In this document: positions 7,542 through 15,408 of the stretch, in pieces
Numbering within the stretch: the first letter of the stretch is position 1
Layout: each line of letters opens with the position of its first letter
Assembly: GCA_012522955.1 (NCBI GenBank)
Contig: JAAYJK010000048.1
Span: forward strand, 1-56,968
Origin: Syntrophomonadaceae bacterium
Lineage (GTDB): Bacteria > Bacillota > Syntrophomonadia > Syntrophomonadales > Syntrophomonadaceae
Reading direction: 5' to 3'
Length of the DNA: 56,968 nt
Program-made: the position numbers and the translations under genes
The notes under the pieces: model-generated
The model's database searches: none
Told to the model about the DNA's origin: nothing
Seen by the model: the letters and a program-made list of their open reading frames with translations, nothing else

Positions 7542-10229
7542 ATGCATAAATTAGTCGAAGTAATAGGTATAAGGGAAGAAAATTGCACCAATTGCCATCA
7601 ATGCATAGCTGTTTGCCCAGTCAAGATTTGCAGCGATGGTAGTGGAGATGTTGTAAAATTCAATAATAATTTGTGTATTGGCTGCGGCCGATGTATTGAG
7701 GCTTGCGTTAAAAGCCATGGCGGTGTGGTTGAGAAAAGTGCTCGCTTTGCCATCGATGATGCTTCTAACTTTGCAGCCGATTTGCCCAATAAAAATATTA
7801 TTGCCCTGGTAGCCCCCTCCGCTCAGGGCAATTTTGATTTGCCCAAGTTAATCACTGCCTTGAAAAGCCTGGGAGTTATCAAGGTCTATGATGTTTCTCT
7901 GGGTGCAGAGATTACCATAAGATCCTATCATGAGGCTATTGGCAAAAAGCAAGCCAAAACTCCGGTAATAGCACAACCTTGTCCTGCCATTGTAAAATAT
8001 ATTGAGCTACATCATCCTGGTCTGGTGGAATATCTAGCACCAGTAGGAAGTCCGGTTCATAACCTGGCCGTTTATGTGAAATCCTTGCATCCAGCTGCTG
8101 ATCTGGCTTTTATATCTCCCTGTTTGGCCAAGCGCCGCGAGTTTCAGGACAGCGGATTAATTAAATATAATGTGACTTATCAATCAATGTTAAAAATCCT
8201 ACAGGAAAATTATCTCGATCTGGATTCCATGCAGGATAGTCAATTCGATAATGTGGTTCCTGCTGGGATAGCCACAAAGTTTTCCACGCCTGGAGGTTTA
8301 AAGGAAGCCTATCTTTATCACTATCCGGACACTCCCCCCAGCAGTATTTCTAAAGTAGATGGAGCAGCGGTGTACGAAGGTTACTTAATAGATTTGGAAG
8401 AATCAATTAAAAAAGGTCTTCCGCATATGCCATTAATTGTAGATATATTGAGCTGCGATAATGGTTGCAATATGGGGCCTGGCTGTATCAATAAATCATT
8501 ATCCAAAGTTGAATATTCCGTATCCCGGCGGGCAGAAATAGAAACCAGTGATGAAGTGGCCAATAAGCAATTAAAGAACTTTTTAAACGAAATTTCCGTT
8601 AAACTTGATTTTAGCTATGGCAATTATGTTGATTTATCTGCTCAGAATCAGCTAAAAATTCCTAGCGAGAATGAATTGCAAAAAATATATATACAAATGC
8701 ACAAACTGGAAGAAAAAGACTTCAGGAATTGCGCGGCCTGTGGTTATAATTCCTGTTATCACATGGCATTGGCTGTATTTAACGGTTTAAATAAGGTTGA
8801 AAACTGCCATCTATACCAGGAAAAAGAACTGAGAATTGAGCAACAAGCCCTAAGCAATATGCATAACGAACTCAGCAATGTTTTTGATACCATGTCAGAT
8901 GGAGTAATTGTGTTAAACCAGGAGGGTAGGGTTAGCCAGTTTAATCCGGCAGCACTAAATATAACCGGTTATTCTGGTGAGGGGCTGTTAGACATTCATG
9001 TGGTTGATCTTTTTAGTGGAAAGGCACCTTATACTCTTAAGCTTCTAGAAACCGGCCAAGACTTTTATGATAAAGAAATATTGATAGACGGTAAATATAG
9101 ACAAATTCATGGTACAGCCACTGGTAAAGCCATATTTGATGATTCCCATCAAGTGGTGGGGGTTACTATAATACTGAAACCTATGGAACAGGTACACCAG
9201 ATGGTAAATACCTTAACCGGGGCCCAAGCCAGTTTTACCTTTGAATCTATAATAGGCGAAGATGAACAACTGCTAAATTCAATTAAACTTGGTATGATGG
9301 CCGGTTCCAATGATTCCAATGTGTTATTGCAAGCTGAGAGTGGCACTGGCAAGGAAGTATTTGCCCAGGCTATCCATAATTACAGTCGGCGAAGAAATGG
9401 TCCTTTTGTGGCCCTTAACTGTGCCGCTTTGCCTCGAGAACTAATAAGTAGTGAATTGTTTGGCTATGCCGAAGGAGCATTTACTGGAGCCAGAAGGGGA
9501 GGAAGACCGGGTAAATTCGAATTTGCCAACGGAGGGACCCTATTACTCGATGAAATCGGTGATATGCCGCTAGAACAGCAAGCTACTTTGTTGCGTGCCA
9601 TACAAGAGAAAGCAATTCTGCGAGTAGGCAGCAATACTTTGGTAAAAGTTGATGTTAGAATAATTGCAGCTACGAATAAAGATTTGCTGGGCTTGGTTGA
9701 TCAGGGAAGATTCAGGGCTGACCTTTACTATCGTCTAAATGTAATTAATATTTTCATACCCCCTTTAAGAGAAAGACCCAAGGATATCAAACTGCTTTTC
9801 CATTACTTTTTGCATGAAATGGCTCCCAAGTTAAACAAAAGCATTAGTAAAATAGATCCGGCACTAATTAGATGTTTAGAGCATTATGATTGGCCCGGTA
9901 ACGTCAGGGAGTTACAGAATGTAGTGGAAAGAATCCTTTTAATGGCGGAAGACGGGCAGCTTACCGTTGATCATTTGCCTATTGAAATTGCCCGGGCTGC
10001 CGTAGGATATGGAACTGTTGTGAGAGAAAGCGATGTGCATGCACCTGGCAGTACTCCCAATCTGCCGTCTCGAAATGAGAGAAAAATATACGCCTTGGAG
10101 CAGGAGAAAGAACGCATATTAACAGCACTAAATATGCACGGTGGTAATGTGACTCGTGCAGCCACGGAACTTAAGATGTCGCGCAATACCCTGTATCGGA
10201 AAATGAAAACGCTTAATATAAGAAATTAG
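7542..10229 (+). CDS. Sigma-54-dependent activator with ferredoxin and [FeFe]-hydrogenase-like sensor modules
   Basis: An 895-aa transcription activator. Domains in order: two [4Fe-4S] ferredoxin motifs (CTNCHQCIAVCP at 15-26, CIGCGRCIEAC at 45-55); an [FeFe]-hydrogenase large-domain homologue (about 85-340) keeping cysteines that match the four H-cluster cubane ligands, Cys147, Cys194 and Cys305/Cys309; an Fe-S domain CAACGYNSC...C (397-422); a PAS domain (about 440-560); a sigma-54 AAA+ domain with AESGTGKE Walker A, GAFTGA loop and LLLDEIGD; and a Fis-type helix-turn-helix (about 850-890). In the L1 motif the proton-relay cysteine of catalytic enzymes is replaced by proline (QPCPA), which favours sensing over turnover. 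Inference: it senses H2 or redox state and activates sigma-54 promoters nearby, for example the one at 12602. The ribosome site is weak, so the exact start is uncertain. Confidence 0.92.
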   Translation: MHKLVEVIGIREENCTNCHQCIAVCPVKICSDGSGDVVKFNNNLCIGCGRCIEACVKSHGGVVEKSARFAIDDASNFAADLPNKNIIALVAPSAQGNFDLPKLITALKSLGVIKVYDVSLGAEITIRSYHEAIGKKQAKTPVIAQPCPAIVKYIELHHPGLVEYLAPVGSPVHNLAVYVKSLHPAADLAFISPCLAKRREFQDSGLIKYNVTYQSMLKILQENYLDLDSMQDSQFDNVVPAGIATKFSTPGGLKEAYLYHYPDTPPSSISKVDGAAVYEGYLIDLEESIKKGLPHMPLIVDILSCDNGCNMGPGCINKSLSKVEYSVSRRAEIETSDEVANKQLKNFLNEISVKLDFSYGNYVDLSAQNQLKIPSENELQKIYIQMHKLEEKDFRNCAACGYNSCYHMALAVFNGLNKVENCHLYQEKELRIEQQALSNMHNELSNVFDTMSDGVIVLNQEGRVSQFNPAALNITGYSGEGLLDIHVVDLFSGKAPYTLKLLETGQDFYDKEILIDGKYRQIHGTATGKAIFDDSHQVVGVTIILKPMEQVHQMVNTLTGAQASFTFESIIGEDEQLLNSIKLGMMAGSNDSNVLLQAESGTGKEVFAQAIHNYSRRRNGPFVALNCAALPRELISSELFGYAEGAFTGARRGGRPGKFEFANGGTLLLDEIGDMPLEQQATLLRAIQEKAILRVGSNTLVKVDVRIIAATNKDLLGLVDQGRFRADLYYRLNVINIFIPPLRERPKDIKLLFHYFLHEMAPKLNKSISKIDPALIRCLEHYDWPGNVRELQNVVERILLMAEDGQLTVDHLPIEIARAAVGYGTVVRESDVHAPGSTPNLPSRNERKIYALEQEKERILTALNMHGGNVTRAATELKMSRNTLYRKMKTLNIRN

Positions 10230-10946: not shown

Positions 10947-12137
10947 ATGGCAAGAGAAGTAGTAGTAGCAGGTCTGTGCCGTACACCAATAGGAACCTTT
11001 GGAGGTGCCCTTAAGGACACTAGAACCGTAGAGTTGGGTAGAATAGTCATGGAAGAATCTATTAAAAGATCTGGAGTGAAACCGGAGCAGATTGAAGAAG
11101 TAATCTTTGGCTGTGTACTGCAGGCCGGACAGGGGCAAAACATAGCTCGGCAGTCCATGATACATGCGGGTATTCCGAAAGAAACTACTGCCTTTACCAT
11201 CAATAAAGTGTGTGCCTCGGGAATGAGAGCAGTACAATTAGCAGCTCAGGTTATTAAAGCTGGGGATGCGGATATTATTTTAGCTGGTGGTATGGAATGT
11301 ATGAGTATTCATCCATATTATCTGCCCAATGCTCGTTGGGGATATAGAATGAACATGTATAAAGGTGACCTTATAGATGGTATGGTTTATGATGGCTTAT
11401 GGGAAATATTTAATGGATACCATATGGGGATAACCGCAGAAAATATAGTAGACCAATATGGTATAACCAGGGAAGAACTGGATGATTTCGGATACATGAG
11501 CCAGGTTCGAGCAGCCCAAGCCATTGCTTCGGGTCGGTTTAAAGATGAAATCGTACCCGTAGTAATTAAAACCAAGAAGGGTGAAAAGGTATTTGACACT
11601 GACGAACACCCCCGGGCTACCACCAGAGAAAAAATGGCTACCCTAGGTGCCTCGTTCAAAAAAGATGGAACCGTCACCGCAGGAAATGCCTCCGGCATAA
11701 ACGATGGAGCGGCGGCCATGATTGTCATGTCCAAAGAAAAAGCCGATGAACTAGGAATCAAGCCTATGGCTAAAATCGTCAGTTATGCCTCCGGTGGGGT
11801 TGATCCTTCGGTTATGGGTTTAGGCCCCATTCCAGCTACCAAGAAGGCCCTGGCCAAAGCCAACATGACCGTAGATGATATAGACCTAATCGAAGCCAAT
11901 GAAGCCTTTGCCTCCCAGTCTTTGGCTGTTGCCCGGGATTGCGGATGGGCTGACAAAATGGAAAAAGTTAATGTCAATGGTGGGGCCATTGCCCTAGGAC
12001 ATCCCATCGGCTGTTCCGGGGCCCGGATTATAGTGACTCTGCTTTACGAAATGCAAAAACGTCAGCTCAAAACGGGATTGGCTACCCTGTGTATAGGCGG
12101 CGGCATGGGTTGTACTACCATATTTGAAAGCTTATAG
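10947..12137 (+). CDS. Acetyl-CoA acetyltransferase (thiolase)
   Basis: Thiolase of 396 aa, the usual family length. It cleaves acetoacetyl-CoA or 3-ketoacyl-CoA with CoA to acetyl-CoA, or condenses two acetyl-CoA; this is the last step of butyrate beta-oxidation. Seen: [16 protein letters not shown] at the N-terminus; the nucleophilic cysteine in [21 protein letters not shown]; the base histidine in [20 protein letters not shown]; and the second catalytic cysteine in [14 protein letters not shown]. All catalytic residues are present. The frame is open to 10860, but AAAGGAAG just before the ATG at 10947 and family length set the start. It stands alone, with the hydrogenase-sensor activator upstream and a strong hairpin downstream. 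Confidence 0.95.
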
Positions 12138-12332: not shown

Positions 12333-12360
12333 GCCTCTGAAAAGGGGCATTTTTTGATTT
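12333..12360 (+). terminator. Short hairpin with T-tract
   Basis: GCCTCT-GAAA-AGGGGC stem-loop at 12333-12348 is followed by ATTTTTTGATTTT, a good intrinsic terminator shape. A near copy of the hairpin occurs at 12541-12561. Confidence 0.6.
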
Positions 12361-12440
12361 TAGCATTACTTTCCGGAGCAAATCGTATAAAAATTTAACA
12401 ATCTTTATATCATAAAGATGAATAATAAATATAATGTTGC

Positions 12441-12504
12441 AAAAGTGTCACATTAATGCATGCCGAAATTTATAAATGACACTTTTGGTACAGGGATGTG
12501 ACAA
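12441..12504. promoter_or_regulatory. Inverted repeats upstream of the sigma-54 promoter
   Basis: AAAAGTGTCA (12441-12450) is exactly inverted as TGACACTTTT (12477-12486). Overlapping it, TGTCACAT at about 12446-12453 recurs inverted as ATGTGACA near 12496-12503. The sites lie roughly 100-165 bp upstream of the -24/-12 promoter at 12602, the usual place for enhancer-binding activators. Inference only. Confidence 0.45.
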
Positions 12505-12540
12505 CATTCGCAAAAATACGACAATGCTATATAATTCATA

Positions 12541-12567
12541 ATGCCTCTGAAAAAGGGGTATTTTCTT
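12541..12567 (+). terminator. Second copy of the short hairpin
   Basis: ATGCCTCTGAAAAAGGGGTAT forms an 8-bp stem using G-U pairs, followed by TTTCTTG. It shares the CCTCTGAAAA-GGGG core with the hairpin at 12333. It lies just upstream of the sigma-54 promoter and could insulate it from read-through. Confidence 0.4.
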
Positions 12568-12601
12568 GTAGTGGAGGATATTAGCCCGGAATATATTAAC
12601 T

Positions 12602-12617
12602 TGGCATGTGTTTTGCA
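12602..12617 (+). promoter_or_regulatory. Sigma-54 (-24/-12) promoter
   Basis: TGGCATGTGTTTTGCA matches the sigma-54 consensus TGGCAYRN4TTGCW at all defined positions, with GG at 12603-12604 and GC at 12615-12616 separated by exactly 10 nt. The start codon of the next gene is 104 bp downstream. Inverted repeats upstream could bind the activator. Confidence 0.82.
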
Positions 12618-12720
12618 TTTAAAGAATGATAAAGAAGAGGAAACAAAACGGTGTAACAGAGCTAGTGAATGATGTAACAAGCACAAATGCAGTTCCTGAT
12701 TGTGAAAGGAGATGAGATTT

Positions 12721-13272
12721 ATGGCTATAGTATTAGAAAAAATGTCGAATTACACTTACGAAAATCCTGACCATGGTTCCCAAATCATTTCCTGTCCTCG
12801 TTATATGAAAGATGTGTATACTCTTGGCATCGATCTCCAGTATTACATCGGTGATATGTATTTGCATTTGGCTGAATTAAACCAAGGAGAAGAGAAAGCA
12901 AAGTACCAAAAGATGGCTGTTAGCGAATTGGAAATCAAGCAGAGGATGCAAGAGATCAATGAAGCTCATTTAAATGAAATGCTGAGTTACTTCTATAACA
13001 GCGGAGGGCAAATTGTGGAAGCCTCATTGGGATCCGAACAGGCTAAAGAGATACAGCCCTTTTTCAATCGGATCATGGCTACTTTCATTAAGCGGCTGGA
13101 AAGGGCTACGCTGTTAGTGGTTGCGGACGGTATAACTCCGGAGCAGTTAAATAATATGATAGATGACGATATTACTGAAATGTGCGGCAATATGTGTAAA
13201 TTATTTAAAGTTGATGAAATTGTTCGAGGTTTTGAAGTATTAACAGAGATCCGGGAGAATTTTCGGAAGTAA
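12721..13272 (+). CDS. Protein of unknown function under a sigma-54 promoter
   Basis: I do not recognise this 183-aa protein. It looks soluble and largely helical: no signal peptide or membrane segment, many Glu, Met, Gln and Asn residues, and heptad-like spacing in ELEIKQRMQEINEAHLNEML and near the C-terminus. Four cysteines are present, with one pair as MCGNMC near residue 155. AAAGGAG at 12704-12710 is spaced for the ATG at 12721; the ATG at 12712 touches the ribosome site and is less likely. It is the first gene behind the sigma-54 promoter at 12602 and is followed after 33 bp by a small membrane protein, so the two likely form an operon. The nearby hydrogenase-like activator is the natural candidate regulator (inference). 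Confidence 0.75.
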   Translation: MAIVLEKMSNYTYENPDHGSQIISCPRYMKDVYTLGIDLQYYIGDMYLHLAELNQGEEKAKYQKMAVSELEIKQRMQEINEAHLNEMLSYFYNSGGQIVEASLGSEQAKEIQPFFNRIMATFIKRLERATLLVVADGITPEQLNNMIDDDITEMCGNMCKLFKVDEIVRGFEVLTEIRENFRK

Positions 13273-13305
13273 CGACTTATAAAGATTAGAAAGGTGGGAG
13301 CAAAT

Positions 13306-13575
13306 ATGTTGAGTAAGAAAAGTATTATTATTCGATACGCGATATTTCTAGGCTGTTTCCTCTTATCCGGTACTGAAACCATTACCGGTTGGACCGCCAC
13401 CCTATGCGGGGTATTTGGAACCATCGAATTAGCTTGTGCATTGCTACGGTATTCACCTTTGGTTGAACTCCTGAGCATGGCTGGGGTAAAAGTTCCAGAA
13501 ATAGTAATGGCTAAGAATCTAAGTTACACCTACTCGGACAGCCATGCTAATCTAGCCACCGGCTTAAAGAAGTAA
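13306..13575 (+). CDS. Small membrane protein of unknown function
   Basis: An 89-residue protein with two likely membrane segments at about 6-24 (IIRYAIFLGCFLLSG) and 28-46 (ATLCGVFGTIELACALL), then a polar C-terminal tail. AAGGTGG at 13291-13297 is well spaced for the ATG at 13306; an in-frame GTG at 13294 lies inside the ribosome site. No family recognised. It follows the unknown soluble protein at 12721 and shares its sigma-54 promoter and the terminator at 13610, so the two products may work together at the membrane (inference). Confidence 0.65.
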   Translation: MLSKKSIIIRYAIFLGCFLLSGTETITGWTATLCGVFGTIELACALLRYSPLVELLSMAGVKVPEIVMAKNLSYTYSDSHANLATGLKK

Positions 13576-13609
13576 AAAAGCAACTAACATAAACTCTTCA
13601 CACTCTCTT

Positions 13610-13656
13610 AATACCCCGGTAATTAAATTACTGGGGTATTGAGCATTTTCTGATTC
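13610..13656 (+). terminator. Terminator of the sigma-54 operon
   Basis: AATACCCCGGTAAT (13610-13623) pairs with ATTACTGGGGTATT (13627-13640) in a 14-bp stem containing one G-U pair and a 3-nt loop, followed by GAGCATTTTC. Confidence 0.7.
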
Positions 13657-13863: not shown

Positions 13864-15408
13864 ATGCAGGCATTGGCTGAATTAATTAGAAATAACGAAG
13901 ATTTTATTTTAAAAAGAACCCTGGATTATGCAGGGCAACACAATTATGTAAAATATACTACTACTCTGGCTGAAGCCAGGACGGTATCTATTCGAGGTGT
14001 TTCCGAAGCCCTCTTGACGGCATTGAACACCTATAATGAAATACCTGAAATAAATATCGATGAAGATTATTCTGCGGATCATATTGCTAGCTATGGAATT
14101 CTTCAAGCTAGACGTCATCGCTACCGAGGAGTAAATCTGGAAATGTTCCTGGGATTGACTATATATTATCGGCAGGCGTATCTGGATTTAGTCCTGGAGC
14201 ATAATTTTCCTGATACCATTAAAAACAAGTATCTATTATTTATCCTGCGCTTTTTTGATCACCTTAAAATAGCTTTCATAAAAGAATGGACAGGTGAAAG
14301 CAAAGAAAAACTCTTGGAACAACTGCAGATGAGTAACCGCAATATTACCAACGAAAAAAACAAGTATTTAACCCTATTTGAAAGCATTCCCACTCCAGTC
14401 ATAATTCTTAACCAGGATAATTTAATCGATAATCTCAATTACTCAGCGATGGAGTTTTTACACGGGACTGCCCTGCCCGGGTCTGACTATTACTCTAAAA
14501 ATAAGTCCAGACAGCAGTTAGAAGATGTTTTTCCCTGGTTGGCAGAAGATTTGCATAAGTTTACTGCGGGAAATAATATAAGGTTTAAATTGGAAAAGGA
14601 AATATGTATTCCTGGTAATAGCGCAAAAACCTTATTGATCAGCTTTATGAGGATGTTGGATGTTAGTGAGAAGTATAAGGGTACAGTAATAATTTTTACT
14701 GATGTTACCGAAATTAAACAAATGGAAGCAGCCATGACCAGGCTGGATAGAATGCATCTGGTAGGGGAGATGGCTGCTAGCATCGGACACGAAATTAGAA
14801 ACCCTATGACTACAGTTAGAGGATTTCTACAGATGTTGAGCGGAAAAGATGTCTACCATGAAGATATAGAATCATTTGAATTAATGATTGAAGAATTGGA
14901 CCGGGCTAATGCCATAATAAGCGAATTTCTTTCACTGGCTAAAAACAAGCTGGTCAAGCTGGAAATGAATAATCTCAACGATATTGTACTAAATATTTTT
15001 CCATTGATAAAGGCTCAGGCTACAGCCCAGGACATGAATATCCAACTCGGATTAAGGAAAATACCTGATACTCTTTTGGATGACAAGGAGATTCGTCAGC
15101 TTTTCCTGAACTTGGTTTACAATGGTTTGGAAGCTATGCAGCCCGGGGGAACCCTGCATATAAAAACTTTCCTTCGGAATAAGGAGATTATTCTGGCAAT
15201 TAGAGATCAAGGCTATGGAATAGACCCTGAAGTGCTGGATAAACTAGGCACCCCTTTTTTGACTACCAAAGCAGATGGAACCGGCTTGGGCCTGGCAGTA
15301 TGTTATAACATAGCCGCCAGACACAATGCCAATATCGATGTAATAACCAGCGCCAACGGCACTATTTTCACGGTTCATTTCCCGGTTGAAGAACCACAAA
15401 ACCATTAA
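13864..15408 (+). CDS. Orphan PAS-domain sensor histidine kinase
   Basis: Cytoplasmic histidine kinase, 514 aa. Seen: a helical N-terminal sensory region (about 1-150) that loosely resembles RsbR/RsbRD-type N-termini; a coiled linker; a PAS domain starting LFESIPTPVIIL (about 175-290); HisKA with the phospho-acceptor histidine in ASIGHEIRNPMTTVRG (about 300-365); and an ATPase domain with N box LFLNLVYNGLEAM, G1 DQGYGID and G2 GTGLGLAV. No membrane segment and no adjacent response regulator. The HEIRNPMT box is typical of sporulation-type kinases that feed Spo0F, a possible role here (inference). GGGAAG at 13850-13855 suits the ATG at 13864 better than the in-frame GTG at 13855. Confidence 0.9.
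   Translation: MQALAELIRNNEDFILKRTLDYAGQHNYVKYTTTLAEARTVSIRGVSEALLTALNTYNEIPEINIDEDYSADHIASYGILQARRHRYRGVNLEMFLGLTIYYRQAYLDLVLEHNFPDTIKNKYLLFILRFFDHLKIAFIKEWTGESKEKLLEQLQMSNRNITNEKNKYLTLFESIPTPVIILNQDNLIDNLNYSAMEFLHGTALPGSDYYSKNKSRQQLEDVFPWLAEDLHKFTAGNNIRFKLEKEICIPGNSAKTLLISFMRMLDVSEKYKGTVIIFTDVTEIKQMEAAMTRLDRMHLVGEMAASIGHEIRNPMTTVRGFLQMLSGKDVYHEDIESFELMIEELDRANAIISEFLSLAKNKLVKLEMNNLNDIVLNIFPLIKAQATAQDMNIQLGLRKIPDTLLDDKEIRQLFLNLVYNGLEAMQPGGTLHIKTFLRNKEIILAIRDQGYGIDPEVLDKLGTPFLTTKADGTGLGLAVCYNIAARHNANIDVITSANGTIFTVHFPVEEPQNH

Follow-up and report, generated by a model that had tools for sequence, protein, structure and literature searches.

Group C (M2f) [FeFe]-hydrogenases, for example Thermotoga maritima HydS, are putative sensory proteins that combine two N-terminal [4Fe-4S] motifs, an H-domain without the relay cysteine, a Cx2Cx4Cx16C motif and a PAS domain (PMC8163306, PMC8924675). 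Syntrophomonas wolfei Swol_1040 is a histidine kinase with an Fe-only hydrogenase domain (PMC4324140). Activators of the FhlA/NifA/NtrC type carry an AAA+ domain with GAFTGA and a Fis-type HTH, and are associated with inverted sites upstream of a -24/-12 promoter. A 2019 survey of sigma-54 regulation in Clostridiales lists Fer4, Fe_hyd_lg_C and FeS among the activator input domains, and describes an XhpR group with a 'hyp-memP' target in Desulfosporosinus, Carboxydocella and Desulfotomaculum and a UAS of the form TGT-N10-12-ACA (PMC6615313).

The locus analyzed here shares features with each of these systems. It encodes an activator that has all four of the listed HydS features but, unlike the HydS-type group C proteins, carries a sigma-54 AAA+ domain and a Fis-type HTH output in the same chain, and a direct DNA target set is proposed for it; because sensor and output lie in one chain, one protein could both sense and activate. 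The output of Swol_1040, in contrast, is a kinase and not sigma-54. The AAA+ domain with GAFTGA, the HTH, the upstream inverted sites and the -24/-12 promoter are held in common with the FhlA/NifA/NtrC type, from which the locus differs in its hydrogenase-derived input, in a phased array of at least four half-sites and in a terminator between array and promoter. The XhpR target type (a hypothetical plus a membrane gene) fits the F0-F2 gene pair described below, although the UAS form differs, the array here consisting of tandem TGTNNC half-sites at 11 bp facing an inverted set. The XhpR group could be a system of the same kind; neither hydrogenase nor H2 appears as a role in the survey's target table, and the main text of the survey does not name Syntrophomonas (PMC6615313). 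Since Fe_hyd_lg_C enhancer-binding proteins and the XhpR 'hyp-memP' target are already listed in that survey, the kind is not wholly new. In the literature searched, we found no account of the sensory-hydrogenase input link of such an activator, of the phased array, of hydrogenase or beta-oxidation targets, or of the LNxxLxxFYxxGG family introduced here.

The window, i.e. the whole stretch of DNA analyzed, comprises 56,968 nt of a Syntrophomonadaceae bacterium (assembly GCA_012522955.1, contig JAAYJK010000048.1, positions 1-56,968, forward strand). Its relevant features are as follows.

7542..10229, + strand: gene for the hydrogenase-like enhancer-binding protein (895 aa; Pfam and 12-sequence alignment)
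10947..12137, + strand: thiolase gene between the activator and F0-F2 (ORF and grouping with other thiolases; ATG 10947 is the chosen start)
12333..12348, + strand: intrinsic terminator 3' of the thiolase gene
12435..12451, + strand: TGTTGCAAAAGTGTCAC, putative left element of the enhancer, with TGTTGC and TGTCAC as half-sites at an 11-bp interval (conserved across loci)
12476..12492, - strand: putative right element of the enhancer, in inverted orientation, at 41 bp from its left counterpart (comparison across loci)
12498..12503, - strand: third inverted half-site GTGACA, a further 11 bp along
12540..12562, + strand: terminator-like hairpin between enhancer and promoter
12602..12617, + strand: predicted sigma-54 (-24/-12) promoter TGGCATGTGTTTTGCA (pattern scans and promoters of relatives)
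12721..13272, + strand: F0, 183-aa helical protein (ORF, relatives, AlphaFold2 model)
12970..13023, + strand: codons of the F0 core motif LNEMLSYFYNSGGQIVEA (residues 84-101), common to the small proteins
13306..13575, + strand: F2, membrane protein of 89 aa with a two-helix hairpin; similarity to YgaP/DUF2892 below cut-off
13607..13643, + strand: strong intrinsic terminator closing the F0-F2 unit

The gene layout of the original prediction, including a terminator of the pair's own (13607-13643), was recovered with every named element in place. The promoter lies 2.37 kb past the end of the activator gene, with the thiolase gene in between, and is followed after 104 bp by the F0 ATG at 12721, which is preceded by a good ribosome-binding site (AAAGGAG, 12705-12711).

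The domain order of the activator, from Pfam and alignment, is two [4Fe-4S] motifs (C15/18/21/25 and C45/48/51/55), an H-domain (84-313), Cx2Cx4Cx16C (397-422; C397/400/405/422), PAS (443-547), sigma-54 AAA+ (570-737, GAFTGA at 645-650) and a Fis-type HTH (853-889). The GAFTGA loop and the C-terminal HTH identify it as a sigma-54 enhancer-binding protein. Across 12 genomes, the activator is 64-79% identical to the window copy, and the 12-sequence alignment shows the H-cluster cysteines C147, C194, C305 and C309, the Cx2Cx4Cx16C motif and GAFTGA to be invariant. By motif alignment, the proton-relay cysteine (CpI C299) is replaced by proline P146, while S192 and L303, at the positions of CpI M353 and M497, are reminiscent of the group D enzyme and having a PAS domain is typical of group C. 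These features match the definition of group C sensory [FeFe]-hydrogenases (PMC8163306), and in every testable feature the input of the activator would be a group C 'sensory' [FeFe]-hydrogenase domain, an assignment made by sequence features.

The original prediction had read TGGCATGTGTTTTGCA as a near-consensus sigma-54 promoter, and genome-wide counts together with its recurrence ahead of most F0 relatives bear this out. It fits TGGCAY-N5-TTGCW with the invariant GG and GC correctly spaced, and is the only exact match to TGGCAYRNNNNTTGCW in the window; over the whole 2.53-Mb genome, this exact pattern has 27 matches versus 0 for the reversed control. The scan of the window allowing up to one mismatch gave 6 matches versus 2.5 expected, about twice chance, and is therefore weak by itself. 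The genome encodes RpoN and 19 clear or strong sigma-54 activator domains. TGGCATGTGTTTTGCA is a predicted sigma-54 promoter, from which a transcript start would be expected near 12628, about 12 bp past the promoter. No strict sigma-54 promoter or enhancer was found upstream of the window's activator and thiolase genes. In regulon scans of the genome, run by pattern and by locus, many of the 27 strict promoters (G000, loci L114-L139) seem to precede beta-oxidation and electron-transfer genes, judged from sequence starts to be enoyl-CoA hydratase, thiolase, acyl-CoA dehydrogenase and CoA transferase; sigma-54 is therefore seemingly the main switch of fatty-acid oxidation in this genome.

The inverted repeats suggested to lie at enhancer distance, AAAAGTGTCA (12441-12450) / TGACACTTTT (12477-12486) and TGTCACAT (12446-12453) / ATGTGACA (12496-12503), are both present and are parts of one larger half-site array. 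Its design is that of tandem TGTNNC half-sites 11 bp apart (TGTTGC at 12435 and TGTCAC at 12446) opposite an inverted set, also 11 bp apart (ATGACA at 12476, GGTACA at 12487 and GTGACA at 12498), and the window holds only one such inverted pair (12435-12503). The left-right spacings cluster at about 31, 42 and 52 bp, i.e. at whole helical turns, which points to helical phase. An inverted double-site pair was found at 26 of 35 sigma-54 promoters located ahead of F0 relatives or behind activator genes, compared with 0.03 in shuffles, a count to be read with the motif having been derived by eye from some of the loci later used to test it. Because the motif was shaped on tested loci, the order-wide search for the 42-bp form and the set of mini-protein and F2-like genes constitute fairer tests. 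The 42-bp form occurs in 16 of the 63 genomes of the order sample, with 0 in reversed controls, and 14 of these 16 carry the activator. The proposed scan of other -24/-12 promoters of this genome recovered the pair at only 1 of 24. Exact copies of the left element TGTTGCAAAAGTGTCAC number only two in the genome, each at an F0 promoter, and the full element TGTNNCAAAAGTGTCAC, with up to one mismatch, occurs within the genus at F0 promoters only. The inverted repeats are, on these comparisons, a putative enhancer.

In many loci the array lies directly behind the activator stop codon, and in four g17 genomes it also occurs immediately ahead of the activator gene, suggesting autoregulation. That the family-2 activator neighbors lack the enhancer was considered and rejected, as the array was located 280-340 bp upstream once the search region was lengthened. 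A strict terminator-like hairpin is present at 17 of the 35 related promoters versus 0 of the 24 other sigma-54 promoters of the genome; the hairpin at 12540-12562 was absent from the original prediction.

Roughly 27 genomes of the order sample (63) carry a full-length activator, a few copies being cut by contig ends, and it directly precedes F0, at 280-450 bp, in 12 loci; in one of these (L059), the assembly breaks the activator's reading frame. In G002, activator and F0 are separated by an acyl-CoA dehydrogenase gene, as they are by the thiolase gene in the window. The F0-F2 pair occurs in seven genomes of the order, and all seven hold the activator (the G046 copy is truncated by the assembly), so that the many activator-less genomes with the pair that would have spoken against the proposed link were not found. 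A strict promoter stands at 28 of 30 core F0 copies in activator-bearing genomes versus 1 of 7 elsewhere (Fisher p = 8e-5, from a hand tally of related genomes that are not independent). The exceptions are G031:C97 and G044:C18, which have no strict promoter despite an activator in the genome, and G012:C27, which has the promoter without the enhancer in an activator-less genome. Among the 398 genomes of the phylum sample, G205 is the only one outside the order with a full activator and the only one with F0. It belongs to a distant family of the phylum and holds a complete operon (G205:C6, L228) in the order sigma-54 promoter-F0-hydC-hydB-hydA-activator, as well as a second activator copy followed by array and promoter. 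G205 may be taken as the best independent co-occurrence event. The G205 operon resembles the transfer of a whole module. With the enhancer tracking the activator and both joined in a hydrogenase operon in G205, the activator at 7542-10229 appears as the best-supported regulator of F0-F2, in line with the original proposal.

F0 has no match in Pfam, NCBIfam or PDB sequences, including phasins and ferritins, and relatives occur in half of the genomes sampled from the order (63), the named matches being from Syntrophomonadaceae and Syntrophomonas. An alignment of 30 copies retains few fixed residues; there are seven invariant columns, five of which (L84, N85, Y92, G95 and G96) fall in one block, LNEMLSYFYNSGGQ. 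The AlphaFold2 model is an all-helical bundle (pLDDT 87) for which Foldseek returned nothing below E 0.1 (best E 0.27); the best VIA-align score, Z 7.8, was to ferritin-like bundles and is of a size often seen between helical bundles. Membership in a known family is not supported by these searches, which gave no Pfam, NCBIfam, PDB sequence or significant fold match, and F0 appears to be a new helical family.

The core motif LNxxLxxFYxxGG is also found in proteins of 65-133 aa under the same type of promoter and enhancer. These small proteins, reached via partial F0 profile matches, end in or repeat YLNEKLxYFYNNGGPIMDL and have no Pfam or NCBIfam matches above cut-off. A sigma-54-type promoter with an inverted array was present at all eight unlinked small genes (seven mini-protein promoters and one stand-alone F2-like gene; shuffled, 0), six of which had been found by protein similarity alone, making the motif the regulon's common denominator. 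Unannotated small-protein loci include L241/L247 and L250 (G005), L245 (G053), L246 (G040), L248 (G027), L251 (G028) and L252 (G046), some with two motif copies.

The partners of F0 vary. It is followed by F2 in nine loci, by hydCBA (NADH-linked hydrogenase) in seven loci from four genera of the order and G205, and by crt-hbd-thl-acd (butyrate oxidation) in two. F2 itself scores 13.5 bits against PF11127 (DUF2892/YgaP-like), under the cut-off of 25.3. The two genes had originally been taken as one unit; F0 proved constant but F2 is replaced elsewhere by hydCBA or crt-hbd-thl-acd, and the constant unit is F0 alone, with the membrane gene F2 as one of several partners.

Taken as a whole, it is likely that the sigma-54 activator with its sensory-hydrogenase domain controls the F0-F2 unit. 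As a dedicated one-component regulator, it would bind the helically phased TGTNNC array 100-170 bp upstream of the promoter and drive sigma-54 RNA polymerase at 12602-12617 to produce an F0-F2 transcript; in relatives, the same activator and array would drive F0-hydCBA, F0-crt-hbd-thl-acd and the stand-alone small proteins with the core motif. The proposal that promoter and repeats match by chance only and that the genes are ordinary can draw on the one-mismatch scan of the window, which is barely above chance, but conservation of the elements spans about a dozen genera as well as one distant family, and we rejected the proposal as having next to no probability on the 27 versus 0 genome scan, the enhancer statistics, the order-wide search and the 8/8 small genes. 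It is improbable, though less extremely so, that the pair is sigma-54 dependent yet driven by another enhancer-binding protein, such as a PAS-type beta-oxidation activator, with the hydrogenase-like activator a mere neighbor. With 19 strong sigma-54 activator domains in the genome, another activator could bind the array. Many other strict promoters precede beta-oxidation genes, and the thiolase gene separates activator and pair in the window. However, 23 of the 24 other sigma-54 promoters are without the enhancer, which follows the activator through the order and into G205 and lies behind its stop codon in many loci and ahead of its gene in g17; enhancer specificity and co-occurrence thus disfavor an unrelated neighbor.

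If the hydrogenase-like activator is the regulator, its H-domain would report either H2 itself or the hydrogenase pool's redox state, a signal inferred from the activator's domains that fits the sensor anatomy. A serious competitor, to which we give appreciable though minority weight, is that the right activator has been identified but responds to something other than H2, its H-domain holding iron-sulfur clusters only and sensing redox (ferredoxin/NADH), or another ligand via PAS. The proton-relay cysteine is lost, the sensory role of group C is itself termed putative (PMC8924675), and redox sensing is common for PAS domains; conversely, the four H-cluster cysteines are invariant across families, and relatives of groups C and D that lack the relay cysteine still form the H-cluster and turn over H2 (PMC8163306). 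As for the products, F0 and the small proteins might be adaptors that dock via LNxxLxxFYxxGG onto a hydrogenase complex or a beta-oxidation complex, F2 serving to anchor them to the membrane in loci that have it, a rather doubtful guess from gene neighborhood and motif repetition. F0 could instead be unrelated to hydrogenase: a storage- or membrane-associated structural protein, in the form of a phasin- or ferritin-like bundle, whose expression accompanies fatty-acid oxidation. The helical bundle, the thiolase neighbor, the membrane partner F2 and the best structural neighbors, ferritin-like bundles that are all weak (Z under 8), would agree with such a role, which is nonetheless unlikely given that phasin and ferritin matches are absent in Pfam/NCBIfam, the invariant columns show no conserved metal-ligand pattern, and F0 heads hydCBA operons in several genera. 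Returning to the adaptor reading, we tentatively propose, as a possibility we would not yet favor, that an H2-sensing one-chain activator controls a previously unnamed LNxxLxxFYxxGG docking family, which adjusts both NADH-linked hydrogenase and the beta-oxidation of butyrate to the H2 level that the methanogenic partner sets. This would offer a possible concrete route by which Syntrophomonas-related bacteria react to hydrogen or redox state. The analysis names a candidate sensor with its DNA site and target genes, as well as a new motif family of small proteins, and a single purified protein and a single DNA fragment would suffice for testing these in vitro.

Several further observations concern the surroundings of these elements. 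At L172, L175, L176, L182, L183 and L184, draft contigs stop within ~220 bp of the activator stop codon, where the enhancer sits, and in L059 the array coincides with a stretch of N. Assemblies may break at the inverted repeats, which would hide F0 neighbors. A gene for a soluble PAS-histidine kinase (AtoS/ZraS-like match) lies at 13864-15408, directly 3' of the F0-F2 terminator. Genus g3 has array and promoter behind the activator (L180 and L181) or, in the fragment L185, the promoter only, and the next gene there is conserved, starts with MSEKSYNPFVNAQAQFDKV and is not F0, possibly encoding glutamate dehydrogenase. Lastly, genes for AAA-type ATPases (..ERYEGN..LF..) are possible further targets of the regulon, being located close to the enhancer or after sigma-54 promoters in L235, L236 and L135 (G000).
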